Origin: Colius striatus
Taxonomy: Eukaryota; Chordata; Aves; Coliiformes; Coliidae
Direction: 5' to 3'
Length of the DNA stretch: 64,000 bases
NCBI RefSeq assembly: GCF_028858725.1
Contig: NC_084774.1
Coordinates: forward strand, 11,072,001-11,136,000
Part shown: piece by piece, positions 3,575 to 56,300 of the stretch
Layout: each line of letters starts with the position of its first letter
How positions within the stretch are numbered: position 1 is the first letter of the stretch
The notes under the pieces: generated by a model
What the model saw: the letters and a program-made list of their open reading frames with translations, nothing else
What the model was told of the DNA's origin: nothing
Databases searched by the model: none
Position numbers and translations under genes: made by a program

Positions 3575-6500
3575 GTAAGCTGCCGGCTGCAGCCCTTCGC
3601 TCCCCCTGCCGCCACAGGGATGGGCACCTCACCGCCTGGGCTGCTGTCACGTCAGCCACGTGCCTGGCGGAGGTGCCCTCCTGCCTTTCGCTGTAGCCCA
3701 GCAGGTCACGGTGCTCCCTGTCTTCCCCAGACCCGCACGGGACCATTATTTCCCCGACCTGCACCACCTGAAGTTCGAGCTGGAGGAAGGCACCACGCCG
3801 GCTGGCCGGGCCGTGCGCTTCGGCTACAACCCCTTGGAGTTTGAGGGCTTCAGCTGGCGGGGATACGCACAGATGTCCTCCATCCAGGTACGCCCGGGGC
3901 TCCAGCCCGGCTCCCCTGGGGAGGATGTGTCGGTGGAGGACTGATTGGCTTTTGGCACACATCTTTCACCCCAAGGGCTTCTCAACCACCCAAAGTCACA
4001 CGATGGCCAACATAAACAGCACAGTGTATATATAGCCTGTTTGCACAGATATTTCCTGTAGTGCTGGGGACAGCAGAGATTGATGAGGGGAAAGAGCCTA
4101 AATTGGGAATCCCCTGACATCTTAATCCATTTAGATGAAGGTGGTAGCTTGGTGGTTACTTACAGGGACATCTATAAACACGGTCTCTAGGTTTCCTTGT
4201 GCCTCTTTCATCTGACTCTGCTCTTTCCTGCAACTCTCTTTATAACCTTCCATCCTTTTTCCAAGATAAATTGGCTCCTCCTTAACTGCCACGTTCAGCT
4301 TGGACTTCTTGTTACGGTTCTGCCTCTGCTCTTGCTGTTAGCTGGTTTGCTGTAACGGTTGTTTCCACTAATCTGGAGTTATCTAAGCCCTACAAGTGAA
4401 GCTGTTTTGTCTGTTGACCCTTTTTTCTCCTTGGTGGTTTCCTCCTCTGCATGGCCCCTGTGAAAGTGTGTGTTTGTGGATGGAGTGCAGGGCAGTGATT
4501 CTCTGACAGTCTTGTCCCATGTAAGATGCTCCTACTGGTGCTGTACTTTCAGTTTTCTTCACTTATTCATGCTTAGGCAAAACAACAGAGAGGTCAAATA
4601 CATTAGTCGTTTCCCATTGAATGTGTAGGTAGGAGCTAAGCAATCAATTCTTGTTCAGCCCTAAAGCTTAAGGATGGAGCTCATGCTCAAGCTTGTGGCT
4701 TTTGTTTTGCATCCAGTGTTGATGTCTGAGATAGATTTAGGCCATGGTAGAGGGGCTAGCACATGGCTTTCTGCTGGCAGGCTCACCTGTAGTTTGCTCT
4801 CTCCAAGGTCCTTCTAGTTTGGGAAGATGGTGTGTAACTGGAGCTTTGAAGAACAGAGCCCCCATAAAGAGTCTCCCTGCACAGGAGACTCCAGCTTTGC
4901 CCTGTGGGCAGGAAAGTGTTTAAGCAGATGTTTAGTTTTCTTTGAAATGGGTCAGACTTAAGCATTTCTTTAACTGGGGTCTTGTCAAGCAGTGTCTGGG
5001 CAGGCGGAGGGCTGGCACACCCGTCAGTGGCACACGGGGCTGGCACCACTGGTCCTTAGCAGTACAGGTTGCTGAGGATGAGGCAGCAGCTCAGTTTGCA
5101 GCCTCTCCTCTCTCAGTGTCAGGGCAGGGCTGCAGCATTGGGTACCCTCTGGCAAGTCACAGCACACTTAAGCCTGAAGCAACATGCTAATAAGAACAAC
5201 TGCTTCTCAAAACCTCTGCTGTGGCGTGTGCCCTGGGAGAGCCAAAGCACCCTGCCATGCCACAGCATCTTCCAGGTGTGGTCAGAGCCTTCCCACCCCG
5301 TTCCTGCAGGCAGGTTGCTCCCTCGGTGGCTGTCCCACAGGGGACAGGGCAGCCTGGTGAGCTGCCCGTGCCATGGCTGCGCAGTAGGGCCGGTGTGCTT
5401 GTCTCCTCTTTGCGCTGTGGCATGTTGCTTTGGGAGCAGTGAGCCGAGCGGCTGCGCTTGGGCTGGTAGCTGTCAGCGGTGGAGGTAATTGAAGGTGTGC
5501 TCTGCTTCTCTCCCCTTTCTCTCTCCCACCAGCCCAAGGTAGTGGTGACTCTCAATGTGACCTCCCCCGACCTCTTCCGCCTCGTCTTCCGCTACGTCAG
5601 CCGGGGGCCCGCCAGTGTGGAAGGGAGGGTCTCGGTCGTTGAGGAAGGAAAGTTTAATGTTTGTGGCAACTGTAAGTGCATTTTTCACTTCTAGACTAAC
5701 TCAGAGCATCCCATGCTGCGACATTGCTCCTCTGCCCCTTCTCCTGCCCCAGATGTGCCCGTCCCAGGTGTGCCCGGCTGAGGCGGCCGGCCAGCGCCGT
5801 GCTGGGGGATGGCGAGGGAGGGGGAAGAGAGGCAGGCAGGCAGGCAGGCAGGCAGGCGGGATGGCCCTCCCGCAGAGGGGGTGGGCAGCCAGCAGCTGGC
5901 ACCCCGGTGACCTGTGCCCCATGTGCTCTTTTGCTTTTTGCAGAATAAAATCAGAGTCACTGTAGACGTGAAGGAGGCAGAGCTCTATCTGTTCCATGTC
6001 ATCCTGAGGTATATTAATTCAGGAGGGGCCACTGTGTATGGCAAAATTACAGCTTATCAGCCACGAAGGAGAGGTAAGGATCCCAGACTACTCTGCTCCT
6101 CTGCATCATCGCCACCTCCTCCCCATCCCAGGCAACCTTCTGCATCATCCTATCCAGAAGACACTTCCATATGGCTTTATCCCATTAGTCCTGCCCCTCC
6201 AATGCAAAGGCTGATCTGAGTTTGCAGCCTTCCCCCCGCTCATTTAACAAAGCAGAAACAAGTTGGCCCTTGGTCCTGGGGCTGCGTGCTGAGGACGGTT
6301 AGCATCCAGGCTGATGTGAGACAGGGCTGCTGTATGGTTCATTACAGCCTTTCCAACATGAGACGAGATCACTTGGTGCCCCAGGCAGAACTGAGCTGAG
6401 TTTCCACCAAAGCAGAATGGGCCGAGTGCTGGGAGCTGGATCCAAACTTTGGCAGCTGGACGTGGGTTTTCCTCGCAGGTGCCCTCGGGTGGCAGCCCTG

Positions 6501-9500
6501 CCCTTGCCTTGCGCTTCTCCCAAACCAGGCTGCTGGCTTCACACGTGCTCTGGGCTCTGGAAGTGGTGTGGAATTGTACATGTCACACAGGCATTGCACT
6601 CTGGTGCAGTATCTTCTCATCAAGCCATGAACTGCTGGAGAAGAGCCACCAAAGGATGGCTGAACAAGCCTGGAGGCCTGGACAACAAATACTGTGAGCA
6701 GACTGCATGGGGACAGACCTGTAGCCACACCAGTGCCCTTGTGGGTGGTTGGCTGATTGATTTTACCTCTTCTGATACTACGGCTACATCATTTTGCTGA
6801 AGACCACATGTGCACAGCACAAGGCTGTCAACAGCAGCTACCTAAGTTATCAGTGTGTGAAGTTGTCTCCTCTGCCTTGAATTGAAACAGAAGGTGTTTT
6901 GCCTTTGATATAATATGCAAAGCTTGAAATGCCAAGATACGATTTTTCTGCTCTTTTTTTGAGGGGAAAACAACAGCTGATAATTTTTAAGGGCAGTCAT
7001 ATTTCACAGCAGAAGGACAAGAGAAACATGAGCCATGGATCCCACCAAAGACAGAAAGTATTTGATCTGTCCTATCCAGCAGCAGAGCTCGTTTGCCTTG
7101 CAGTGTGTTTCCCTCCTTGCTCAGAAGCAGTGTTTGGTTTTTCTAGTGCTGAAGGCAAGCTGCCAGACTGACACACCAGCCATGGGATCTGCAGGGCAAC
7201 TTCCTTGATAGGGCAGATCAGCTACAAAAATGCTGAGCCACCTTCTGCCCAGGTGGAATGGGCTTCACATGGTTAAGGACAAGCAGCCTGGAAAGAAGAC
7301 AAGTTGGAAGATGTGGCTTGCAAAAAGGGAAGCCTTTTCCAAGCATATGATTTACAGACCAATTTCTCCTGTCTCACTTCCAGAAGCCATCTCATTTTGA
7401 GTTGTGTATCATCTCAGAGGGATGTGAGACTTCAGCTTGTCAAGAAAACTCCCCCATTGCCTGTTCAGGGAAATCTCTCCATTCCTTGTATAATCCCCTG
7501 TGCTTCTCATCTGAGAAAGCTGGGGCTCAGCCTCAGCTGGTGCCAAGCCTGGCACAAGAGCTAGCACACATGGGAAGGGATGACCCATCCCAGCAGTAGC
7601 ACAAGCCTTTGCTTTAGCTTCTGGCCCAGAGGGCCTTGATGTCCACGTACTCTTCCAGGATAGTCAGCGTGCCACGTTCCCCGCTTCCTTCCTCTCCTCT
7701 GCTCGCCATGCAGCCATACCCAGTGCATCCCTCTCGTGCTCTTCTCAACACTCCTGGCACTGCCAGACAGGCAGAGAGGCTGCTTCTAGGTGCTGTATCA
7801 TTGCTGCATCCAAAGTTGATGAATCCAAAGGTTATGAGGCCAAGGAGATCTTCAATGGGAACAGGATCAGGCCTTAAACCCGTTCTGTCCTGGCAGTTAA
7901 AATTAGCGTCTGAATCTCGGGTGCAGAGTCTGTGGCTGGAAAGAGAGATGGGAGCACAGCTTTGAGGGTTTGCCAGAGGGCAGGTATCTTCCCTGTGGAG
8001 CTGGGGTCAGAATATCCCTAAGAAAGAATGTATCTGGGCAATTCTTTTTGTCTGTCTCAGAATGGATTCTTCACAGATGAGTTCCTTCCTTCTCTAGCTG
8101 CCAGAACGCTCCTTGGCATGCAGCACTCCGTGCTTTGCAGTCCGGGGATGCAGAGCACGCTGCGAGAGCTGTGGATTAGCATTTAGGATTGCAGTGATTT
8201 ATTTTCTCTCTCCCATTAAGCTACTGAGCAGATTCAGAGTGGATGTCTCTGTTCCGAGACAGCGTGGGATCGTAGTGCATCTGCTACAGCAGCGCCAAGA
8301 CAGCGGGAGCCTGGGACTCCCTGCCGTGCTGCAGAGCTGCTTCCCTGAGCATAGCCTCCCGTTTGCAGCCCTAGCTTTTCCATCCCAGTCCCTTCACAAC
8401 CTCTCATCCCTCCCACTCTAGGTACAGAGCAGATCAAGCAGATTGTCTTTGCTCCCAGCACGGAGCCAGCCTTTGTCACCGTCCCCCAGAACAGCTTTGG
8501 GGAGCCCTTCGTACTCAACCCCAACACCTGGTCTCTGGTTGTTGAAGCAGAGGGTGTGCTGCTGGTAAGGACCAGCCCCCATGCTCCATCCACCACAGGG
8601 TGCTTCAGCAGCTCCCTGAGAGCATGTGTCCCAAACATAACCAACTCTCTTGTCTCTCCTCCTAGGACTATTTGGTTTTGCTACCCAGCTCGTACTATGA
8701 AGCTCCGATACTGCAGCTGAAGGTCACGGAGCCATGTACCTACCAGCCAGCCCCAGAACAAGCCAGCCAGAAGTAAGGATCTCTACATCTTTGTGCTGTG
8801 TGGGACCTATTCAGCTTCTCTTGGCCTGGGGTTAAGAAATACATAACAGTCCACACTCTGTGAGGGTCTGAATGCAATAAAGCTGCCAAGTGGAGCACAG
8901 CCATAGTTGATAAAGCCTGCTGAACCTGCACTGTCACAGAAAGCCAATGCTTTGATCTCCTCATCCAAGGCACAGGCAGTGTTTTCATGGACCATAGCCC
9001 TCTCCTCTACTAGGCTGGGTTATATGTTAGTCCACAGTGCTGGGAAATGGCTGCAGTGATTTAGGTCTTGCTGGACTGTTTAAAATGAATGGGCAGAGTG
9101 TGGTAGTGCTCTGTGCATCTGCTTACTCTGTCCACAACCTCTATCGATCTTGGCAGAAAGTCTGGTTGGGCCCTGGACACCAGTTGTCACCTCCACTGTA
9201 GCAGTGATCCCTTGGATAAAGCACAATGCAAGGGGAGCAGCTTTTTTCTGTCACTGCCATCATGGGTCCTATAATACAGAACCTCTTGCTCCATCCACAC
9301 TAACCAGAGATGTTCCTTTGGGCAGTGGAGTCTTTGTGTTGGACCAAAGCCTTTTGCAAACCGTGCTGGGATCAGGCTGTGTGGATGCTCTTGACTCTTA
9401 CAATTGAGATGTAACAACCACTTTTGTTTTTCTGGTTGTTTTTAGCTGCCTCATGTATAAATACCTGTCTGTGGATGGCTTCCCTGCAGCATCAGGGCTG

Positions 9501-12500
9501 GAGGCCGTGTGCAGGCTGGACAACCGGCTGCCCAGAGCCTGTCCCACGGAGCAGCTCACCCCATCCCACCCCCGGATGGCCACGTGCAGGGGCAGCGATG
9601 TGAGTGACACTGCTCTTCCATCCATCACCTGGGCACTACAGCATTCAGCCCCTGACATCAGCCCTCTGCTCCCACCTCATCCAAGAAGGCCAATGGCATT
9701 CTGGAGTGTATTAATCAGAGTGTGGGCAGCAGGTTGAGGGAGGTTCTCCTCCCTCTCTACACTGTCCTGGTGAGGCCTCATCTGGAGTCCTGCATCCAGT
9801 TCTGGGCTCCTCAGCTCAAGAGACTTCTAGAGAGAATCCAGTGCAGGGCTGCCAAGATGCTGAGGGGACTGGAGCATCTTCCTTATGAGGAAAGGCTGCA
9901 GGGCCTGGGGCTGTTTAGTCTGGAGAGGAAAAGACTGAGAGGGGACCTCATCAACACTTATCAGTACCTAAAGGGTGGGTGTCAGGAGGATGGGGCAACA
10001 CTTTTTTTCAGCAACAGGACAAGGGGTAATGGACATCAAGTAGGTCGCAAAAAGTTTCACTGAAACACAAGAAAAAGCTCCTTTGGTGTTGAGGGGAGGG
10101 AGCCGTGGCCCAGGTTGCCCAGGGAGGGTGTGGAGGCTCCTTCTCAGGAGGTTTCCAAACATGCCTGGACATGCCCCCTGATCAAGGGGAACCTGCTGTA
10201 GCAGGGGGTTTGAAACAGATGATCTCTGGAGGTCCTTTCCATGAATCTCACTCATCTCTCTGTCCTCCAGGTGGAAGTCCAGCTGTCCCTGCCCGTTGCC
10301 CAGCCTGGGAGATATGTGCTGATGGTGGAGTATGCCAACACCAACGCTTTGCAGACAGTGGGCATTGCTGTGAGCTCCCCACACTTACCCATGCAGCAGG
10401 GCACATTCATCTTCTACCCGTGTGTCTACAGGTATGGCCATCTTTGAGACAGAGGAGGGGTTTGGTTCTCCTCTGACATGGCAAGGACAGGCCCTCTGCC
10501 CTCAGTTGAATTATTTCTACTTTATCACATGAACAAAACAATGCTTCAGTGCTGTACATTTGAGCTGTACATGTCCAAACTCATTCTAGCTGGACATGGA
10601 TTTTAGTGACTGGCCGTGTCTGGGCAATAGGTACCTGTACCAGCACATTCCCCTACTGCCTGTGCCAGGAGATCATCTGTTGCTTCTGTTTACAGCTGGA
10701 TACATTGGTTGGGGTCTTGATTTAGGGAATGGCCCACATGCAGGTTTCTTGGTGTGGGTCAAACCGTGTCCCTTACTCCAGAAGCGTCTGACTCCAGGCT
10801 GCAACCTTCGCAATAGAAAACAAATGTCCGGGGTGTCCTTGGGAAGCTTCGCTCTTATCACTTGCCAAAGGAAGGCATCAAAAGATTTCCAAGGCCTCTG
10901 TATAAATACCTTCAGGACGTATAGCTTGGCAAGACAAGAAGTGGGCTGTGGCCTGGCTCAAGGCTGGCTGCTGAAGCTGTGTTTCCCTTACAGTTTCCTT
11001 TGCCGGGGGATTGCTGTCGATTCCCAGAGCCGCGTGGCCACGTTTGAACTGACCTCGGAGGCCACTGTTCGCTTCACCTCTGATCTGGCTGACTTCTTCC
11101 TGGTAAGGCTCCCTGCCAAGGCAGCTCTGTTGACAGGCTGGAAGGAGGTGAGGCAGGAGCAATACCTAGCTTGGAGAAGGGCTTTCTAGTGCTGTTTGGA
11201 CTGGATACTAGACCTTAGTTTATGTCATAAGCAGCCCAAGCTGGAGAACGTGGTCAGTGTTGTGTTTTGAAGCAGATCACAAGGCTGGGATTTGGGAGAA
11301 GATGGAGAGAAGCAGCTGCTCTTTGCAGAGGGAGCTCTGCAGCAGTGTGGCAGTGCCCCTTCCTGTTTTACCTTGAAGGCATTCACAGTTGCTTAGACAA
11401 AGATTGAAGAGTCCTGTAGATACCTGGAGGTCCCCTTAGGGCTCCTGCCAAGGAAGAAGGGGCAGTAAACAGAGATGTGACCTGCCTTGCATTAGCTGAA
11501 GTGTCTGATAAGGAGGTGCTTAGTGTGGACAGCTTGATGGCTGGTGTGCACAGAAGCTGCTGTAAGCTCCCAGTGTTAGGAGCTGCCACATAACTGGGGT
11601 TCTCTCCCTTGGCAGCACAAAGTGTCCCTCATCCCCACCACGCAGTTCACCAGGGAGTTCATCGAGCCCAAGGTGCATTGCATCAGCATCCACGGCACCT
11701 TCTCCCCCAACAGGTAAGAGTCTCACATCCCTCGGGGTTTTAGCATGAGTGAGGTTGTTTCTTCCCCACTTTCTTCATGTTTGGAGCCTTTTCAGTTCTT
11801 GACATAGTGGAAAGAAATCTCTGGCTGAGGTGATTGCCCACGTCCACCGAGCAGGCAGCCATGGAGTAAGGACTAGAAGTCACTGGTCCTTTACTTGAAC
11901 ACCACTCTGCCTCCTGTGGCAGGCATTCAAATGCCATCCTGAGTAGGCTTTCCTGTGCTTTCTCACATACAGTGAGAGACACTCATTGGATCTGAATTTT
12001 TGACAGTGTTTTGAATAATTATTTACACAGGAATTAGCCTGTGCAAGGTTCCTGCTCTTCCTGCTGAGCCCATGTCCCAGAGCCCCAGGGGTTAACCTGC
12101 AGATGTTAGAGGGCCTCCTCTTCCTGACAGAACTCCAGAACCTCTCTTGTCAGAGATCTTTAGATCCCTTTTTCTCCTTGTTTTGCAGCAGCTCCTGTGT
12201 TCCCTCAAGGTTCCTGAAGCTTTCTCAGTCGATCATTTTGGAGGAGGGCCAGGCCCTGCCCATCCCCCCTGATGTGCCCCTGGCTCAGGCTGTTCATGTG
12301 GCTGCAGCTGGGGCACCTCTGGAGCCTGCACCTCAGCCTCCCACAGCGCTGGACCCCACCACAGAGCTCATCCTCCTGCAGCCACCACAGGTAGTGGCAC
12401 AGCTGGGGCTTGGGCTGGTTTGCTGGTGCTTCAACACGGGGTGCCTGGGGCAAGAAGAAGTTTTCCTTCTTAGATTTAGCAATGAACAGTTTAGCATTTT

Positions 12501-38900: not shown

Positions 38901-40030
38901 GGAAAAAACAGTTTCAAGTGCTTACTGATTCATGATGCTCATAAAAGATAAATGCAAGTGGGTTTCATAAAGAGGTAAGACTCCAGAGAATCTACTGGAA
39001 ACAAAGAGAGATTTCTCCTGGCAGTCTTAACTTTCAGCCTACACCTACTGTAACAGCACAGTTTAATTTGCTAACAGCACAGTTTACACTTCTGGTATTA
39101 ACACTGTCCCCAACTCACCCTCCAGAGCCATCAGCAATTTCTTCCTAAGGAACTATAAGCGCTTAGTCTAAAAATATTGGGGTTGTTTCTGAATACAAAG
39201 CCTCTGAGGCCAAGGAGCAGAGAATGGACTGTACCTCCCAGGGCTGAGAGCTCGTGGCCTCCACTGGCGTTGCCACCCAGAGCACCAGGCATCGGGGGGT
39301 TGTTGAGATACTCGTTCACTTTCCTGCAGTGCTCCTCATCCTTGTCTGTCTTCGGCTCCTGCAAGAGAGTTGCTCTTGGTACGAGTCAAAGGGGAAGTGT
39401 TTTGGTGTGAGATCTTTCTCATTGACCTCCCACAAACCTGCATCCAGAAGAAGAGTCGTTTTGATCCTGCCTTGAACTTCAATACGTACACACGGCCCGT
39501 GGTGCACTGAGGGACCCTCTTGAATTCACAGTCATCAGGAAAAATAATCAAATCCTGGAAAATGGGGCAGGAGGGACAAATGTTTGAGTGAAGATGTGAG
39601 TATTCCTTTTAGCCTCCCAAAGACCTCTGCCCTCCTCTTGCCCAGAACTTCTTCCATCTGCTCCTCTGAGGAGAGGATTGGAAAGTGCAGGTCTGTCAGG
39701 CCACAGCCGCATCTCCATCCTAATTTGACGTGGAGAAGCTCTTTCAGCAGTACAATTGGAACAAGAGCGAGACAGACCGTGACTTACCAGCCCAGCACTG
39801 CCACTCCAACCCCTACTCACGTCCTCAACATTGCCCGAGGTCCTGTCCTTCCAGCAGAAGTGAATGAGGGAGTCGTCGGTTTGCTGGATGTACACGAGGC
39901 CTTTTCTCTTGTCTGGGGTCACGGTGCTGCCTTTCAGGGACATCTTCCCTGCCCGAAATTCCACCAGGTATTTGCTTGAAGACCCACGGGAGCCTGGCAC
40001 CAGGCTTGGGAATAAAGCCCCTGAAGACAT
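34369..40030 (-). CDS. ADRM1: ADRM1/RPN13, proteasomal ubiquitin receptor (complete CDS, 9 coding exons)
   Basis: ADRM1 is a 19S regulatory particle subunit. Its N-terminal Pru domain docks on RPN2/PSMD1 and captures ubiquitin chains, and its C-terminal DEUBAD recruits and activates the deubiquitinase UCHL5/UCH37. Coding exons in transcript order are 40030-39821, 39554-39438, 39358-39235, 38788-38702, 36665-36584, 36384-36155, 35994-35837, 35083-34981 and 34475-34369. Together they give 1,218 nt, or 405 residues plus stop (human 407). The protein starts [20 protein letters not shown] and ends DEEEDMSLD, nearly identical to remembered human ADRM1. The ATG begins one base after the 3' splice site, so the first exon is non-coding. 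Introns are short except 36666-38701. Confidence 0.97.
35252..35288. repeat. (CA)n dinucleotide microsatellite
   Basis: About 18 uninterrupted AC units in the ADRM1 intron between coding exons 7 and 8. It is likely to be length-polymorphic. Confidence 0.97.
36155..38788 (-). CDS. ADRM1: ADRM1 exons encoding the Gly/Ser-rich central linker
   Basis: Exons 38702-38788 ([20 protein letters not shown]), 36584-36665 ([15 protein letters not shown] then Ser run) and 36155-36384 ([18 protein letters not shown], then Ala/Pro/Ser-rich, then [16 protein letters not shown]) form the low-complexity linker and the start of the UCH37-binding half. The Ala-rich stretch is encoded by a GCC/GCG run around 36290-36330. 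Confidence 0.94.
36666..38701 (-). other. ADRM1: Longest ADRM1 intron
   Basis: This is 2.0 kb between two linker exons. No coding similarity or repeat family is recognised; there is a poly-A run near 38653-38666. Confidence 0.55.
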
Positions 40031-44300: not shown

Positions 44301-47300
44301 TCAGTATATGTCTGGACAGTCTGAGAAATTTCTATCGAAATAGCCACCTGAGTAGAGCCAATCTGAAGTCCCAGTGTAGGGGTTAGTGCCTTGCTGAAAC
44401 CATCTGTGGAAAGAAACACAAAAAGAAAGGAAAAAGGGAAAGAATAAAAGGAAAAAGAGTGAACAGTTATTAAAAGGGTAAAAAAAACCAACCCCAACAA
44501 CTGTGCTTGTTTCACAAAACACTTTAAAACAAGTGTATTTCTTCAGGAAAACAAACTCTTGGGAAACATGGACTTGGAAAAGGCAGCATTAAGCTTGCTA
44601 CATCATCAGCACCTTATAAAGCATCTTTGCGTTTCTTTAACAGCAAGTCAAGGAGGAGCAGGAAACAGATGTTAAAATTGCAGCTCTATTCCAAATAAAA
44701 TTAACACTGAGACTTTAGAGAGTATCTTTATTATATAGCCATATTTTTTTACTTTCAGAAGAACACCCAATCAGTTACACAACCCTTCTTGTAAACCTGT
44801 CCAACAGGAAGCAGTTTTGCCCTGCAGAGCTGCACTCTGCACAGAACACTAACAGATGTTCACTTTTTAGCCACATCGACTGAAAACAATTTTACGTCCT
44901 CTGGAAGAGATTTTCAAAGGCATGAGCTGGAATTGGTCTGCAGTTGCTCCTCCAGGCTTTGGGAAGAGAATGCTTTCTCTTCTGGATGGTTATGAAATCA
45001 TGGGAGCATCCCAAAGCTCTTGCCTTTGCGGGAAGCAGATGCAGTCCCTGGCCATGAACATGAGCTCGGCTGCAGAGCATCTGAAGAGCAACCTGCAGCA
45101 GCCAGATCTCCCCTGACCCCGTGATGCACTCTGTGACCAAGAAGTCACTTGAACATGCAATCAAAAAAACCCAACAAACCAATTTCTGAAGTATCCAAGC
45201 CAAGAAGTCCTCAGAATGTGAAAATAAAAGGCCCTAGAGGGCCACAACCCAACAGCCAAAAGCTGGTTAGAAGAGAGATGAGACTTCACATTCTCCTCAT
45301 TCTGAAAAAATGTGACCTGTGTAGGTTTTACAAAATTCCCAAGATGCAGCTTTACCAGAGCAGTTACTTATGACAAGCTTCAGCATTTACTACTAGATAA
45401 TTTCTCCAGGACAAAGTTATTAGCAATTTTGGCTTCCAGCTGCAAATGCTCCAAGAGACAGTACTAATGGTGCTGTCATGCAGGAAATCAAACACACTCT
45501 GTCTTGAATAAAAGCATCTCAAGCAGCACACCAAAGCATTCCAAGCATTCAACAAGTGCCCAGCTTCTTCCCCCTTACCGTGTGTGCCACTCCACTTCAT
45601 CCTTTGCACGCTCCTTGCGAGCAGCTCTTTGTTTCTCTTCTAGTCTCTCTTTTTCTTTGCTAGCCACATCTAACAAATATTTCAAGAGAAGGTGGTTACT
45701 TAGCAAAACGGGATGTGGAGAACACAGAAAAGACAGCACAGAAATGAGACAGTTCCCTTCAGCAAGAGAAAGCACTTGCAGCACACAATCTCCCTGAACT
45801 AGGAAAATCTCAGGCAACAAAAAAATCTCCCAGTGTCATTTCAGAAGACTGGCCACTACAGTCAAAACTGAGATGTTGGTGGTTTATCCATCAGAAACAC
45901 TGCACTGAGGCAGCAGGAAGGAATGTAGATTAGACACACAGCGAGGGATTTTTTCCTCTGTTTGGCCACGTGCTTTTCCTGACAAATGCCAGAGCAACAG
46001 AGCAGCATGTCTGCTCACCACATGTCTGTCCAGACAAACTCCAGAGCGAGAGAGCATGTCTGGCAGTTCCCCCAGGTTAGCAAACACATAAATACACCAC
46101 AACATAGGACAGCAGCCTCAGGATCCACCTGGGGTGCAGCATTTGCTCCCTCAGACTTCTTTGGGAGAAAACAGCCAGTACACATTGTTCAAAGGTGTGT
46201 TCATTAACACAGGGTGAAAAACAATTAAAGCTGTCTTCAGCTTCTCATTCCCAGAGCAATGTTCCTGTTCCAAGCAACCTCCCCCCAATCATCCCTCTCA
46301 AAACTCACCAACAGGAAAACATTTCCCCACACACAGACATACCCATGTTTCCATTTTCCATGTTTCTGATATCTGGGCGTAGCCGACAGTCGGTGGGGGC
46401 CAATATTGCTTCCATGCCCTTCTCTAGCTCATTGAGACTCACAGCAAAACTGGTGAAATTGTACATCTTCAAAGCAGATTAAAGAAAACATATAAGTTAT
46501 GGTGACAAAGTGGCAATGGGTTCCCTTTACTGAATGGATAGAACAGAACTTCCTAGAGAAATCACCCAGTGAAACCTCCCCTCCCTGACTACCCAGAAAG
46601 CAAGGTTAGGGTCACACAGAACTGGGTCTTTTCTTGGAGGAGATGGATAAAAAAGGGCAGAAGAGGATGGAAATCACAGCTTTTCATTTTTAATCTTTGC
46701 TTCAGAGGATCAAGACAGATTTTCCTCCATATCTGACATTTAACACGATTTTCATGCAAAGATCTAAAAGATCAAAGAGTCTTGTTGAAACCATCAAAGT
46801 TAACACGAGAGCCCAGACTTGCAGAGCAGCAGCTGCAGTCACAGTGTGCCTTCATCCTACCCACTGCCACACAGCAGTGCTGCCTTCAGCATGGGAAGCA
46901 AGCAGAGAGCTTGCTGCAGGATAATTTTACTGCTGCAGCAAGAACTGCCAGAGCCTGTCATGGTTTCCCTTGAACATCACTCATGTTCCCTTGGACAAGT
47001 TACCAGCAACACAGAGACAGACTGAAACTATTACCTGCGATGAGTTTGGTGGCCTACAATTTATTCTCCAAAGCAATTTGCTGCCTGGTATGAACTGCAC
47101 TGTATCTTGAACCTCTGGCATATCATCAGCCTCATCGTTTTCAGATTTAATAACATCTTCACTCTGAAACAGAGACAACATTTGTCAGGGGAGCAGAGGG
47201 GCAAGGGACAGTCCCATCTAGAGCTCTACAGTGACTGTTGAAGCATTGGTTCAAATCTGAGATATGAAACACTCTCCTGTACTTCTGCCTCACCTCTCAT

Positions 47301-50300
47301 GTTTGCTTTTCCTCACTCTGTGTACTGGTCCTCTCATATTTATCAGAACATCTTGCTCCTGATACTTCTGAACAGTGTCCCACCACCTATGTACATCTTG
47401 AATATCTGTTCAACCCTATTAATAGTGAATTAATGTCTTTTGGAAGTCTTTTCTCTAGCTTCCCTTCTATCCCATGCCATAGCTTCATTTCACTTAACAG
47501 AACTATTGCTTCTTCAGGTTGAAGTGAACCAAGACTGCAATTTAAACCAGTTCCCATGAAGGCATAAGGATAAATAGGGCATGTCTGCTTTTGGATATTG
47601 CAAAAGATCTGGATGTGTGATTAAAAACCAGACATGCCCTTGTTTCAATCTGATTTCCTATTTACTATTATCATTGCCAGTTTTGTCACTACAGAGACTT
47701 GGTGCTTCAGTTCATAAACACAGTCTCTTTCCCTCCAAGCTCCTCTGTTATCAGATGCACTCCTATAATGCATACCTGAGGTCTAATGCAGTTCTCGGGC
47801 TGCTCTCAGAATCTGAGAGAATCTGACTGTTGTAGGACACTGACAACTCCATGGTGGAATTTCACAGGATTTCACCATGAGAAACCATTTAAAACCTCAG
47901 TAACCAGAAGGGAAGTTTGAGGCAGTAATATCCTAGAGAGACAGTAACACAGTTTTCCTCCCTCCCCTCACTCCCATCCCTTTCCTATTTTCTTTCTGTT
48001 CCTTCTGACATGGCTCATTTATTTTATTAAAAAATACTCTATTAGGTTAAACAGGGCCTGTTTTATATGCTAGAAAACAGCTCCATATGGTTAAGAGTCT
48101 AATTTAAATCATTTGGTTTGAGCATTCATTATTTAAAGAGACTCTTTTAGGCTCCTTTCCATGTCAACATCTGGTTTACTGTTAGACAGTTTCCCATCTA
48201 AATATAGATTCAACAGGAAGGAAGAAAAGAAAGAGTTGATTTTCATAAGATGAACAGAATCTTATTATTAACAAGTCAAAATATAGGACTACACCATGAT
48301 GAAATCCAGAGCCAAAAGCAAAGTCTGTTGTTCCTCCAAGATTCTTCTCATGTGAATACTTTTTAAAAGTTTCAGCCTCTCACCATTAAGAGTGATAAGC
48401 TTCTATCTGACTTACTCTTTGCATTCTCAATGAACAACCAGGGTCTGCAAGACCCTCTTGATATCAGGAATCCCAACAGTCCTCTGCTGCACCATACAAC
48501 ATTTGCATTTCCCATTTGACCCTGAGCTTTAGGGGAAACTCACCTGACACTGCTTACATGTGATGAAAAAACCCTGCACGTTTGCAGAGCCCTTTGCTGT
48601 CAAGGCTGACTACAACAAATTCTGAAAGGCTGCATCACCAAAAAGCACCACTGGCTTTAAAAACATGTAATTTATTTATTAGGGCTTGTAATGCCCATAT
48701 CCTACTGCTTTTACATCTGGAGTTGGCAGTAGAGCCACTTTCCTCATTCAAAGACTGGACATCATCAGCTCAGGGGTTGATATTCGATGACTTCTCTGAC
48801 AAATCTCTAGCAAACCCCATTCCTATGAGCTCTCTTCCATACCAGCAGCTCACACTGCAGTCTACTCAAGTTCAAAGTTCAGTGCCTTCTCACGGGACTA
48901 ACACTGCCTTCATCCAACCCCTACCAAAAGACAGAGTCTTCTAACCCTCCATTCACCACCTGACCATTCCCATAAGGATGTTTGCCTTTCATTTCTCATA
49001 TTTCATTATCTTTTCTCCCTAAAGAATCCTTCACCTTACCGGCTTCAGTTTCTTCTGCTCACCACCTCTCTTCTCGTTCTTCTTGTAAGTCTCATACGTA
49101 GTGGGATCAGTGCACCATAAGCATTCTGTCCACTTGCCATAGATCACACACAGCTTCTTTCTGCTGCATAAAAAAAGCAAAGGAGATACAGTTTTTGTTT
49201 CTTACAAAGCCTTCCAAGCCAAGTCATGCAGGTTCTGATCTATATTAAATACCCAGATTCCTACTTTGTTGTATTTACGTTTCTTTCGAGATTTCCTAGA
49301 AGCCAGATACTAGATAATGCATAGAAAAGGTTTCAGCTCATTCCAGTCTTTCTGGCACTCAGGCCTGCAGAACAGATCCTCACAACTTAGTTGCATGTTT
49401 CTGTTACAAGTAGTGTGGGTGCAATAAAGCCAACAGTGTACAACACAGAGACTCTGAGTCATGAAAAGGGGTTTGCGCTGGATTAAACATTTCTAATAAC
49501 CATATTCTTATTATTTGAAAGTGAAGAGTGGAATCCTGACTGCACAAGAGTGAAACCAGTTGTGACTACTTTGTGTTTTCCCTGAATACTTTTTATTTCC
49601 AAAGACTGGATTGGAGACTTTTCCTAGTAACACCTAAAACTTCTTGATTCTAGGATCATCATTTAATACTGACACAGAGAACAGAAATGGGTTCCAATGT
49701 GCATTGCTAACAACTTCACAGGCACATCATTTGTGGTCACTATGCCAGAACCAAAAGAAAATGCCACAGTGCTCAGAAACAGAGACCAAAAGGCTTTTCT
49801 CACTTACTTTTTGTCCTGGATGTATCCCTCTACTCTGTGAAGCTCTTTGCCAAACAGTCCACATGGTTTAAAATTAAGGACACATTTGTCTCCAGTGCTG
49901 TAGAGGAAGTAAGTAGATGGTTAAGGAAGTGAGACTCTGAATACATTCAGAAGTTGAGGTTTTTTACCTCATTTAGTCTTTTTCATACAGTTACAGTTAG
50001 CTGGGGAGATATTGATAACATTCTTTCTCTAGCTATGGATTATTATATAACCAAGGCATCCAAAAAAGCACACAAAATTCCACAACAGACAAAAAGGAAA
50101 TCAGTGTGCACATGAAGACATCAGCCTGTGAAAGCCAACTGATAACATAACCAACCATACTTCCAGGTTTCAGGTATACTTTAATCAAAAGGACTGGGAA
50201 TAAATGCAGCCTTGCAGATTACCTAACCCACACTATTAACACACCATGTTTCAGGTTAATATCTGTTTACAGCTAATTGTCATGAGAAATAACTTTTACA

Positions 50301-53300
50301 AAGTACTTATCCAGGACAATCTAGTGAAGTGCATTCAAAAGCTACCTCTAAATTGCATATCAAAAATCCCGAACTAACCACCTAGAATTGTATTTCAGCA
50401 TCTTCCCTGCACTGAGATGTACACCTTTGTACATAATCTCTCCCAGTGAGGCATCAGGCCAGGTTTCTATATTAAGCACAAAGCACAGAGACCATTCTGG
50501 GCCTTTTGTGGCAATCTGAGAGATGGGATTGTAGGTCTGATGCTGTGAAAAGCGTCAAAACAACAGCTCTGCTGGATTAAAGCTCCCATTATTGACAGAA
50601 AAACATGCAGAAGCAGAGTTCCCACAAATTTCTCTCCCTCATCATTACAGGATGCAATTTATTTTACATAAAAGTGAAAAGCTTTTATAGAGGCAGTTGG
50701 CAGAGCAATTGATGTGCTTCAAGTTCACATCTCCCTACTCAGCAGTCTTTTTTTTCTGTGCTGTACCCTTCATTTAAGATACTCCCTAATTTTAAAACCA
50801 AACAGAGAGCCAAATCACAATCAACACGATGGAGAACCAATGCAAGCCTCCACCAATGATTCCACTGAATGGTTCTGGAGTGAAATTCAATTTCTACTCT
50901 CTGTTGATAAGGCTGAATTTGAATGAACAACTCACAAATGTAAAGCCCTTGTATCCCAGAAGCCATCTAGCCCTGTGCTTTTCCATTAACATCATGATAA
51001 TACTAAGCCCAGTCTAACAATAGTTTGAGACTGTCAGAAGAATTAACAATCCACCAAGACTTTGGACCTACAAACCAAAGCTTCCTGTGTCATCTGACAG
51101 CAGTCAAAACTCTGCTTTGCAAGAAAAGTGACCATGCACCAGTGCCTACGAGCCAGCCCTCAGTTTCATGATTAGCATTACCTGTGATTTACAATTTCTA
51201 CTGTTCCATATTGTTCTAACCACAGTTTACCAATAATTACATTATGTACACAACAGGTTGGATTTGTCCATGTGTAAGCTTCATTATGTCTGTAAAGAAA
51301 ACAGAGAAAGAAATCATTGTCTGGAGTTTGAGAGGGAATGTAAGCCTGTTTGCAATTCTCCTCATGGCAGGGCAAAACATATTTAGCACTCGTGTGAAAA
51401 GCCAGCACTTAACTTCAAAACAGAAAAGAAGCAGACTTTTTTTTGTCAGCCAACTATGTGTTGTATCCAAACACCAGTGAAAGTTATTAAAGTGTTATTC
51501 TTCCTTCTGAAAGAGTAAGTTTTACAGTTGCTGTGCTTTTGATTACAGATTCCAGCCCAAACAACAGCAGTCCAGGAATTCATCTTTTTTCCTTTTCACT
51601 TTTAAAGTTGTATGTGATAAAACAAAATACTCCCAGGAGAACTGGACTGACAAACTAACACCTAATGATGTTTGCAGCAGCACTGCAAACTTCTCCCTAA
51701 AGCTCTGTCTTGTAAACCTCTCTCATAATCTTGAGAGTAGCCTTTTTGGGATAAAACAAAAAAAAAAGCAGTTAGTCACTGCCAGTTCTCACAGAGGTTT
51801 GCTATGAACACTCTTCCTTGAGGGCTGGTCACAACAACTCACTTCAGTTTTTCATTTTCCAGACACTGGCTACTAAAGTCTTTTGAACCTGAAGAGAGTG
51901 GCACATGTCAAATTGATTCAGTGGCTTTCACAAAACCACCTCTAGCTTCCACATCAGTATATCAGGCCTGTTCCAGTGTCACTGAAGGCTGCTTTGGGCA
52001 TATGTGTGGTTTGGGGGCTGGTTTTGGTTGGTTGGTTGCCACCAGTGGCACACAATAGCACAACATTCAAGCTCTGTAAATATGACATTTAAAAAAGATC
52101 ATTTATTAGTCAATTCCATTCTTTTCTCCAAAGACTTACTGAGAAGAAGGACAAGCCCTAGAACTGAAGAATTCTCTATTTGGTTTCATTTTGGTTTCAA
52201 TGTTTTGTGGAAAGGGTTTTTAACAGAGGAGTTGCAGGTTCCAAAGCTTTAAAAGGCATTATTCTAAAAATGGATTCTGAAGTTATTCTTAAAAGGAATC
52301 AATTAAATCAATTAATAATCAAACTAAATGATGTTAATAATTAACTACATTTAAATTCTTAAATTATCCTGAAGAGGATCCCCATTGTCACTAGCTCAGC
52401 AGAGTCAAAGCCATCTATTGGCACTCATATTTCCGTGCCAGTAAATAAACGCTGAAGTTACCTGGTTGGCAACAAATCCATCTTAAGAAAGGTTGCAAAC
52501 TCTATTTTAATATTAAAAAGTACAGATGCAAGCAGTGTCATCTTTGTAATAAATGTCTTGTACTTCTACTTCCACCAAGTATGGGGAGAACACTCCATTT
52601 TAATGTTTTCAACCAGTCTGTCATTTTCCAGCACAGACAAAAACCAGACCCGACTGTTTTCCACAGCAAGTTGTCTTGAAGCATATTTCAGAACAATAAC
52701 AACTCTTCAAGTGGGGAAAAAAAATACCAGAACACCTCAAATTCATCCCACTAGTCTTAGCACACATTTTTATTCATCAGCTCCTTGATACCAAAAGCTG
52801 TATAGCATAAAAGAAAACACCAGACACTCGTGGCTAGTGCTGGTGAATTGAAGCACTTAGTCATGCTGAAGTGAGGAAGAAGTGTGTTTTCTAATGTGTG
52901 ATTTGAAAACACAGTCATGGTTAACATAAATGCAGTAGTTAACACTAGGGAGAAAAGGTACCAGTCAAAGAGTTATTGCTCACTGAGGACCTGAGCTCTT
53001 CTCAGACTCCTCAAGCCAACAGGACCGTATGTATCAACACTGAGAGGCTCAAAGTTTGGTTTCAACTTCTGCTGCTAACTTGAAGCAATTATTTAAAATA
53101 ACTGCTTTCATCATTTATATTCCAGTTTAAATCTGTGCCCTGTAATTTGATTAGGCAGAGCAAGGCTTTTAATAGTCTTCTAAATAAAGACTGTCTCTCA
53201 AGCAACAAACGTGTGTCATGCCTGTGTTCTGACACCCAGAGCTCCCTCTACGCTCTGAAGAAATTCTCTCTACTTCCATCATCATTTATATATCCAAGAC

Positions 53301-56300
53301 CAGTTCATACTGTTGTAAGCCGTGGAAGATTGGATGTCAACAGCTCAAAAATTAAAGCTCTGCTTTCAAAAGACACTACAGCCAAGGCTTGACATGGCAG
53401 GCAAGTTGTCTCTTTATTGAAACCAAATGTCTGGAAATTTCCCCAGAGGACATTTCAAAACAACCTCGGGGTTAGGCCTGAGGAAAGCTTCTATAAAAGC
53501 ACCTTCCAGTGTTCAATTGCAGAATGCTGCTTCTGCCAACCAATACCTCGTGCATCCCTGTGTCCTACCTGGGAAAGCTCCAGAGTCTTTGTGCCACCAG
53601 GGCACAAATCAACTTATGGAGGCACATACTCAGTAGAGAGGCAGTAAATCTGCAGAGGCATTGTTGATTTTGATAGGAAGGTGACAACACACAGGAAGTG
53701 TTCAGCAGGTGACAAGGCAACCCTGACAAGTTCCCCACATTCTCTCATCATGTGAGCAGCAATTGTGAAGATGCAGTGCTTTCCACACAAACCATCTAAC
53801 CCAACAACAATATTGAAAAGCAACATAGCATCAATAACCTGTAACAGGATTCACACCTTCACAGAACTTGCTTCCAGGAGCATTCCATTCTTAAGAAACA
53901 TCAACTTTCATAGTGGAAAACTGTCAAATTGCTACAGCTGTGCAGTGAAAATAAACCTTTAAATAAACTCCTACAACCTCTTTAGCAAGAGGTTTTTATA
54001 GTCACCTATGAAGAGCCAAGAAGATGATTATCACCTAATCTTTTTATTCAGGTAAATGTTAGAGAACAACATTAAAAAAAGGTATTGACTTCTCATACTC
54101 ACTTCAGAAGCTCCAAAGTAATTGTTCCCCGAGGCTCTGCTTCTATACTCTTCCCCCAGAACTTTAGTTTGGGATAGATTGATCCATGAAAAACAAAGTC
54201 TTGATTGAGGCCTTCGGAATAAAACGCACTAATAGGTGGGTGGTGGCTGACTTGCTCAGAAATAAACCTAAATCCTAAATCCTCCCTAGTAACAACAGAA
54301 AAAGAGCATTAAACAGTATTTTTTTCATGTTACAAAAGAGTTACTTGACTTCTTTTTTTTAAATGGAAGGAATTTTTGGATAAAACTGAAAGTGAGACCT
54401 TTCCTGTTCTAGTCCCACAGTTAATTGACAGTGAATGAAGTTAAAGAATAAGCATTCTGAATGCTTTCTCTTAGTTCCCCAAACCAACCCACAGCCAAAC
54501 ACTTACATGACTTCTACCCAGAAAGGCATTTGAAGAAGTATCACTGAAATAACTCATGAAAACTCTGAAGCTTTTTGGGCAGCAGCAACAGGTCGCCTGA
54601 AGATTGTTTCTGCAGACACATGACCCATTTATTTAAGCAACCTGGAAGTCCTTCAGACTTAACTCTTCTGACGTGATCAGCAAAACATTGTTTAAATTAA
54701 TTAATAGCATCTGCTCAGGAAATATTTTTGGTGGAAGAACATGGACCAATTTTTCTCTCTCTGAATAATTCAAAGAATATTCTGCCTAAACCTAGACAAG
54801 GAATTATTGGCTTTTGTAACAGCTCCTCAAAGATTTTGACACAGTTGGTGGAAAAGAATTTTAGCTACACTCAGAAATATATTTCAGTAGATTCTTATTT
54901 ATTCCACTGAAGAAGTAACCAAACTAGTATGACAGTCTGCTAACTCAAGAATATAAATAGCCCCAGCTCCCAATTTAAAAGAATTGTTACCTGGTTAACT
55001 CATAGGTTTCTCCTAACAGTGGATTAAATGGTTTGCCAGTTCTCTCCCACTGAGAAGCTACAGCAGAAACTGCAAAAGCAGCTACAGCCTACAAGCAAAT
55101 TAAGAACACATTGTTATGAGAACAATGCATTAAAAGTCTATGCTTAATATGATGATATTTGTTGCCCATTTACAGTATTTCATTATTCTTCCAGAAAGAA
55201 AGTACAACATATTGCTTAAGGCAAATACATTTTTAAGGCATAGGATAAGTGATACAGAAGTGGGAAAACAGAAGTAGTTAACAAGAATCTAATTTCCAAA
55301 AGGAATTCTTTTCTGTGGTAAATTCTGCGAGGTCACACTCTGCCCCATGCTTCTCCAAGTACCTCTGAGGGGACAATGTGGGTTTTTAGATCTACTTTTT
55401 CTCTGTTTTGATTTCCCCCCACACTCAGCTCACTGGGAACAGAGCTTTGCTTTTCCTAATGTCACACAAGCATTACTTCCAAAAACAGATGAGATTTCTT
55501 GAGTCACACCAGTAGGTACAAATGACACTTAGAAGCTCTTGCAGGCTGATAAGCAGAGGTATGTGCTCCACAAACACAGGATGAGATATACAACCCAGTT
55601 TCACTTAAGTAAAAACAGAGCTATGAGCAATACCAGTGTAATCTCATGTACACAGGCCTGGATTCACCACATTCAGTTCCTTGTTGCGAGACCAGCCAGG
55701 TACTACAACCTACAACCCAACAACAACCAGTTTGGAAAGCCACTGTCACAACAACTTTTCATCCAGTAACTTAAAAATCAAATCAATTTAGGGTGACTTA
55801 AAGCCAACATTTAATCTTCACAACAACATAAAACTACCAAAAAAAGTCACAGTCAAAGCAGTCATAAAAGAGGTTGAGGTCCTTGGGCACCATCAGTTGT
55901 GGCTCTCTCCTGCACTAGGCTTTTGGATCCAAATCTACACACAGCATCAAGTGTGAAAGTGTCACAAATACCCAATACAGCCACTGTGAAACCAGAAACC
56001 TGCCTAAACAGATAGATATGAGCATTCTTATAACCTCAGACAAAGAAATACACTCAGGTGAGAAATTGTTTTCAAATTGAAGGCTCTCTGAGAGAAAAAC
56101 TGAACCAAGCAGAAGGTGGTAGGTGTTACTTGCCTGCATTCTTTCCAGGGGGTCTGCATGGCTACAAGCCTTATTAATGAGGTATATGTGTTCCATATAT
56201 TCTGTTATCCGTTGAAGGAAACTCAATGGCTCGTTGAAGACAATAGGCATTGTAATCTTTGACAACTCCTAGGTAAGAAAGGGATAAGTTAATTTCACAG

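Follow-up and report, generated by a model that had tools for sequence, protein, structure and literature searches.

Gene content of the locus

The window (the whole stretch of 64,000 nucleotides of Colius striatus DNA analysed here) begins within a laminin alpha chain gene and also carries exons on the opposite strand. The features used below are the following:

3731..3887, forward strand: exon "7", 157 nt, ending in phase 0, open frame PARDHYF...MSSIQ
5533..5671, forward strand: exon 8a, 139 nt, phase 0 to phase 1, 46 residues (+C)
5672..5943, forward strand: intron between 8a and 8b, 272 nt
5944..6073, forward strand: exon 8b, 130 nt, phase 0 to phase 1, 43 residues (+G)
8422..8564, forward strand: exon "9", 143 nt, which needs one base, T from 8a or G from 8b
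39284..39973, reverse strand: ADRM1 exons, convergent with the laminin gene, three pieces that match ADRM1 residues in tblastn (87-100% identity)
46344..56271, reverse strand: exons of an oxysterol-binding-protein gene, found by a PF01237 family search in the same genome

The exon numbers are those of an earlier note on this DNA and differ from the numbering of the LAMA5 gene itself because the window begins within the gene. The coordinates, lengths and phases which that note had assigned to exons 7, 8a, 8b and 9 were all recovered.

Residues of human LAMA5 domain IVb aligned with consecutive exons of the window at 51-75% identity, with one additional, partly spurious alignment at 34%. These matches point to a LAMA5-like gene, and the convergent ADRM1 supports the name LAMA5. 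The oxysterol-binding-protein gene occupies what we take to be the OSBPL2 position, and the order of the window agrees with the human order, which we assume to be LAMA5-ADRM1-OSBPL2. Within the short arm of the alpha-3 and alpha-5 chains, exons 8a and 8b presumably encode the initial portion of the long domain IV. A later domain IV exon of the window (10268-10429) has, by eye, a pattern resembling that of exon 8.

Two homologous exons that each bridge exons 7 and 9

Exons 7 and 9 are joined in frame by either 8a or 8b on its own, whereas inclusion of both or of neither does not keep the frame. Scripted joining gave open frames for 7-8a-9-10 and for 7-8b-9-10. When 8a is joined to 8b after exon 7, the first two codons past the junction read TAA TAA: the earlier note had placed a TAA at the first codon of 8b, which is correct, and had overlooked that a second stop follows it directly. 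Direct joining of exon 7 to exon 9 shifts the frame, as had been proposed, and leads to a stop in exon 10. The statement that only one of the two exons can be used is therefore accurate for in-frame messages and has to be limited to those. Alternative donors near the end of 8a and alternative acceptors near the start of 8b were tried, and none above the cut-off would permit in-frame use of both exons.

The protein-level homology of the two exons, also put forward earlier, was confirmed: the BLOSUM62 local score of LAMA5 8a against 8b is 61, the mean of shuffled sequences is 19.3 and none of 2000 shuffles scored as high, which rules out chance similarity. An AGGC short tandem repeat was seen by eye at positions 5830-5857, inside the intron between 8a and 8b, and the spacing of the exons may therefore differ among individuals.

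Splice sites were scored with an approximate weight matrix, for which the 5194 AGs and 3178 GTs of the window served as reference, also for the LAMA3-like gene described below. The 8b acceptor is in the top 0.29% of AGs, the 8b donor in the top 0.35% of GTs and the 8a acceptor in the top 0.71% of AGs. These three sites deserve the description "strong" given to all of them before; the 8a donor (ACT followed by GTAAGT) does not, since it scores 3.1, falls in the top 3.84% and has T at -1. This donor is only moderate in both laminin genes (3.1 in LAMA5, 3.3 in LAMA3). On the same approximate scale, none of the eight sites belonging to the two pairs ranks below the top 3.9% of the window's GTs or AGs.

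A matching pair in a LAMA3-like gene

The whole genome (1.21 Gb in 191 contigs) was searched at the protein level with E up to 10, and the best candidates were scored. Besides itself, the 8a query (46 residues) matched one other place, C6:48560687-48560809 (E 5.1e-6 over the whole genome), and the 8b query (43 residues) also matched one, C6:48561009-48561128 (E 5.0e-6 over the whole genome). Both matches are on the same strand, 199 nt apart, and the only other place reported for the exon 7 and exon 9 queries is the same gene on contig C6, where they flank the pair. The features of this locus are:

C6:48557684-48562551: LAMA3-like locus of the pair, with the same order and phases as in LAMA5
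C6:48557684-48557840: exon 7, 157 nt, 67% identical to LAMA5 over 49 residues
C6:48560687-48560825: exon 8a, 139 nt, 23/41 residues identical to LAMA5 8a
C6:48560826-48561008: intron between 8a and 8b, 183 nt
C6:48561009-48561141: exon 8b, 133 nt, 20/39 residues identical to LAMA5 8b
C6:48562409-48562551: exon 9, 143 nt, the same length as LAMA5 exon 9
C6:48711534-48718421, reverse strand: oxysterol-binding-protein gene near LAMA3, found by PF01237 family search

Human LAMA3 LG residues align with the C6 gene at 51-69% identity and, in a single stretch, with the LAMA5 locus at 44%; LAMA3 domain IV residues align with exon 8b of the C6 gene at 67%. Judged by these alignments, the C6 gene is LAMA3-like. 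The earlier note had referred to a single, 8b-like segment in LAMA3; in this genome LAMA3 has both 8a and 8b. The orthologous tandem pair in the LAMA3-like paralogue gives strong support to the suggestion of that note that 8b may be an old alternative.

The joining behaviour is also the same. In LAMA3, either exon alone leaves the frame open, 8a followed by 8b reads TAA TGA at the junction, and a message without both exons meets a stop in exon 9. A possible second acceptor with the same score (5.0) lies at C6:48560967, 42 nt before the point where LAMA3 8b is inferred to begin; it would add 14 codons to this exon with the phase unchanged. For all six pairs among the four exons, none of 2000 shuffles scored as high as the real comparison. 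Further decayed exon copies at the two loci were looked for among 3180 open segments of at least 18 aa (91 kb of both loci) and dismissed, the next profile match beyond the four exons having an E of 1.4.

Selection and conservation

Selection was assessed from synonymous and nonsynonymous divergence between the paralogues, with Fisher tests on rounded counts. Synonymous divergence is near or at saturation in exon 7 (pS 0.89), 8b (0.73) and exon 9 (0.66), with pN values of 0.20, 0.29 and 0.30, respectively, and the excess of synonymous change is clear in all three (p 1.2e-13, 1.4e-5 and 2.9e-4). For 8a alone the test is borderline (p 0.056) because the synonymous sites of this exon are unusually conserved: its synonymous divergence is the lowest of the four exons, 14/33 sites versus 77/101 in the other three (p 0.0005, a post hoc comparison). 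This may mark exonic splicing signals. The dN values of 8a (0.32) and 8b (0.37) lie between those of exon 7 (0.23) and exon 9 (0.38).

Among seven comparisons of intron flanks between LAMA5 and LAMA3, none exceeded shuffles at the 1% level (the best had 13/300 shuffles as high), and the ends of the 8a-8b intron gave no alignment beyond shuffles (35/300 and 169/300 as high), whereas each of the four exons in the same comparison had 0/300. In unused sequence of this age, loss of frame, phases and splice sites would be expected; all are retained here.

These data bear on the possibility that LAMA5 8b and LAMA3 8a are relics, old and readable and no longer spliced in. Human reference proteins, used as probes, contain 8a in the case of LAMA5 and 8b in that of LAMA3, and loss may therefore be tolerated in mammals; the maximum likelihood branches of the non-reference exons are also longer (0.78 versus 0.35 and 0.72 versus 0.44). 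However, frame, splice sites and protein similarity have all been retained in these exons although the tested intron flanks can no longer be aligned. Furthermore, Tajima-type relative-rate counts, a weak test on few sites, are not raised for the non-reference exons (5 v 4, 4 v 3, 4 v 4 and 4 v 4), so faster evolution of these exons is hinted at by the branch lengths and not by the counts. We consider it improbable that they are relics, and favour a pair of which both members have stayed in use.

Consequences for the protein

A switch between 8a and 8b would replace 43-46 residues of domain IV. Seven alignment columns do not vary among the four exons: V9, L14, F15, R20, Y21, G25 and G31 (8a numbering). 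By eye, LAMA5 8a carries an NVT sequon and, once joined to exon 9, reads CGNCT, that is, a CxxC together with a second sequon, NCT; LAMA5 8b has none of NVT, NCT and CxxC. In LAMA3, NYT is found in 8a and NLS in 8b, again by eye. Since sequons and CxxC differ between the exons, the switch would change putative N-glycosylation sites and, for alpha-5, a potential disulphide loop.

The Pfam search returned no family for the three spliced segments; for 8a alone there was one match, bMG10 (E 0.17), which fell below its cut-off. Among PDB sequences, 8a matched two C4HR1_4r chains, with E about 3e-6 by itself and 7e-4 to 8e-4 as part of the spliced segment; going by the name, this is presumably a designed protein. 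For 8b there was no match by itself and one, at E 1.4, as part of the spliced segment. The exon 8-like pattern at 10268-10429 suggests that domain IV may be made of internal repeats, with exon 8 in the first of them.

How the choice could be made

Several mechanisms might make two neighbouring exons exclusive. Steric exclusion is unlikely, the gaps of 183 and 272 nt being well above the intron minimum and the AG exclusion zones of 8a and 8b being 36-54 nt. Spliceosome incompatibility does not account for exclusivity either, since the donors, which by eye are GTAAGT, GTAAGG or GTAGGT, read as major-class sites. With neither of these fitting, regulated choice combined with removal of faulty messages remains. 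The splicing machinery would then join exon 7 to 8a or to 8b according to cell type, exclusivity would rest on regulators of both exons, and nonsense-mediated decay would clear the messages containing 8a plus 8b as well as those skipping both. About 130 nt separate the double stop from the 8b-9 junction downstream of it, and a stop so far ahead of an exon junction is expected to elicit nonsense-mediated decay.

Competing RNA pairings in the introns were evaluated in six tests of 40 shuffles each, in which 29, 3 and 2 shuffles were as low or lower for LAMA5 and 2, 15 and 35 for LAMA3. Because the low-scoring pairings differ between the two genes, this mechanism has no support and was dropped. 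A regulatory element common to the LAMA3 and LAMA5 introns was not found. The LAMA3 8a-8b intron has two TGCATG motifs 30 nt apart within its 183 nt, and a third lies about 170 nt 3' of 8b; the LAMA5 intron has none, with two more distant ones at 4448 and 6704. Over 10 kb of the LAMA3 locus the motif count is ordinary (13 versus 9.5 expected, 41/200 shuffles as high). The pyrimidine content over 40 nt of the acceptor is 0.95 for 8a and 0.82 for exon 9 in LAMA3, and 0.78 and 0.80, respectively, in LAMA5. Since the LAMA5 8a acceptor does not exceed that of exon 9, the pyrimidine tract is not a shared sign. We take TGCATG to be an RBFOX-type motif and the pyrimidine tract to be PTB-type; control of the pair by such factors is a weak lead.

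The stops at the 8a-8b junction also allow the pair to be viewed mainly as an off-switch, in which the 8a-8b join would tune the amount of laminin or give a truncated N-terminal arm. In favour of this, the double stop is present in both genes (TAA TAA and TAA TGA) and, according to the abstract of PMC9328196, LAMA3 yields the netrin-like LaNt alpha-31 through alternative splicing. A pure poison exon, however, needs no conserved protein, yet 8b has the low pN relative to pS given above (0.29 vs 0.73), and by itself it fits exons 7 and 9 in frame. An off-switch as the main role of the pair is thus very unlikely, and an exchange of coding exons is the reading that we retain.

Descent of the exons

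In local alignments, identity is higher between genes within an exon type (8a/8a 23/41, 8b/8b 20/39) than between types within a gene (12/36 in LAMA5, 9/37 in LAMA3), and both 8a copies have a common 2-residue gap. The tree ((L5_8a,L3_8a),(L5_8b,L3_8b)) received a bootstrap of 99 and an AU p of 0.991 on 48 columns; on the same columns, the AU test rejects crossed grouping (p 0.014). Since the exons group by type and not by gene, the exon duplication preceded the gene duplication. Independent duplication of the exon in each gene has next to no chance of being correct: although it would also give two tandem pairs, each exon is nearer to its counterpart in the other gene, and the pairing within genes that it entails is ruled out by the topology test (AU p 0.017, 48 columns).

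Downstream of each laminin gene, on the other strand, lies an oxysterol-binding-protein gene, which amounts to one shared neighbour family. By our own count this family has 51 listed matches, in 13 places of the genome. With so few places, a shared neighbour is unlikely by chance and fits block duplication; the exon duplication therefore appears older than a block duplication, which we presume to be one of the early vertebrate whole-genome duplications, about 500 million years ago. We infer that the exon was duplicated in a single ancestor of LAMA3 and LAMA5 and that both copies have since been kept under protein-level selection. Going by genomic sequence, 8a and 8b are very probably a true, ancient pair of mutually exclusive tandem-duplicated exons.

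Mammals and known systems

Laminin alpha-5 and alpha-3 are among the principal chains in the basement membranes of epithelia and vessels, and we know of no coding alternative splicing inside domain IV of their short arms. A pair that is older than both genes and survives in both would suggest that some feature of this little understood domain is regulated, such as binding, glycosylation or a disulphide loop. The human LAMA5 segment matches 8a at the LAMA5 locus (64% over 50 residues), with no match reported for 8b (E up to 0.01), and the best match of the human LAMA3 segment is 8b in both genes (E up to 0.01). Likewise, we take the human reference isoforms to contain 8a in LAMA5 and 8b in LAMA3. 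These segments and reference isoforms together suggest that mammals have reached the outcome of one exon in each gene, by later partitioning. We lean slightly towards a history in which the alpha-3/alpha-5 ancestor had a regulated switch in domain IV that was kept in both genes here, mammals having frozen LAMA5 as 8a and LAMA3 as 8b. A fossilised splice choice would then account for part of what distinguishes mammalian alpha-5 and alpha-3B laminins in function, and birds would still be able to make four variants of the alpha-chain arm, mammals two.

Other ways of diversifying these chains are known. We understand the LAMA3A/LAMA3B isoforms and LaNt alpha-31 to change chain length. Like the 8a/8b pair, they create alpha chain diversity through transcript choice (for LaNt, PMC9328196); unlike them, the 8a/8b swap would exchange 43-46 residues in place.

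No relative was confirmed in a scan of viral_contigs (0/86 pattern matches) or of genome_contigs (0/21). The pair appears in no title or opening of an abstract among the literature matches listed, as far as these extracts go, and may already be present in some genome annotation. "LAMA" and "laminin" are absent from the main text of PMC5740500, PMC4465641, PMC9741552 and PMC7954323.

In passages of PMC9741552, PMC4465641 and PMC5740500, tandem duplicated, mutually exclusive homologous exons are described as often ancient and kept through gene duplication. The laminin pair resembles these tandem duplicated exon substitutions in that adjacent homologous exons would be used one at a time. The genes named in those passages include channels, kinases, enzymes and muscle proteins, with no basement-membrane protein among them. 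The kind of event is well known, whereas the gene family is unexpected and offers a testable case of partitioning between paralogues.

Three fates after gene duplication are distinguished in section 12 of PMC9741552: both genes keep both exons, one of the genes keeps both, or each keeps one. LAMA3 and LAMA5 of this genome, as read from their exons, show the first outcome. In CACNA1C/D versus CACNA1F/S, and in FYN versus SRC, YES1, FGR and FRK, the ancestral pair predates the gene duplication, as with LAMA3/LAMA5, and some descendants of the CACNA1 and FYN/SRC families retain both exons while others retain one each (PMC9741552, section 12). Unlike in these families, the contrast for LAMA3/LAMA5 would be between lineages for the same two genes. 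Should this hold, the laminin pair would be a clean case of alternative splicing turned into a difference between paralogues in one lineage and not in another.
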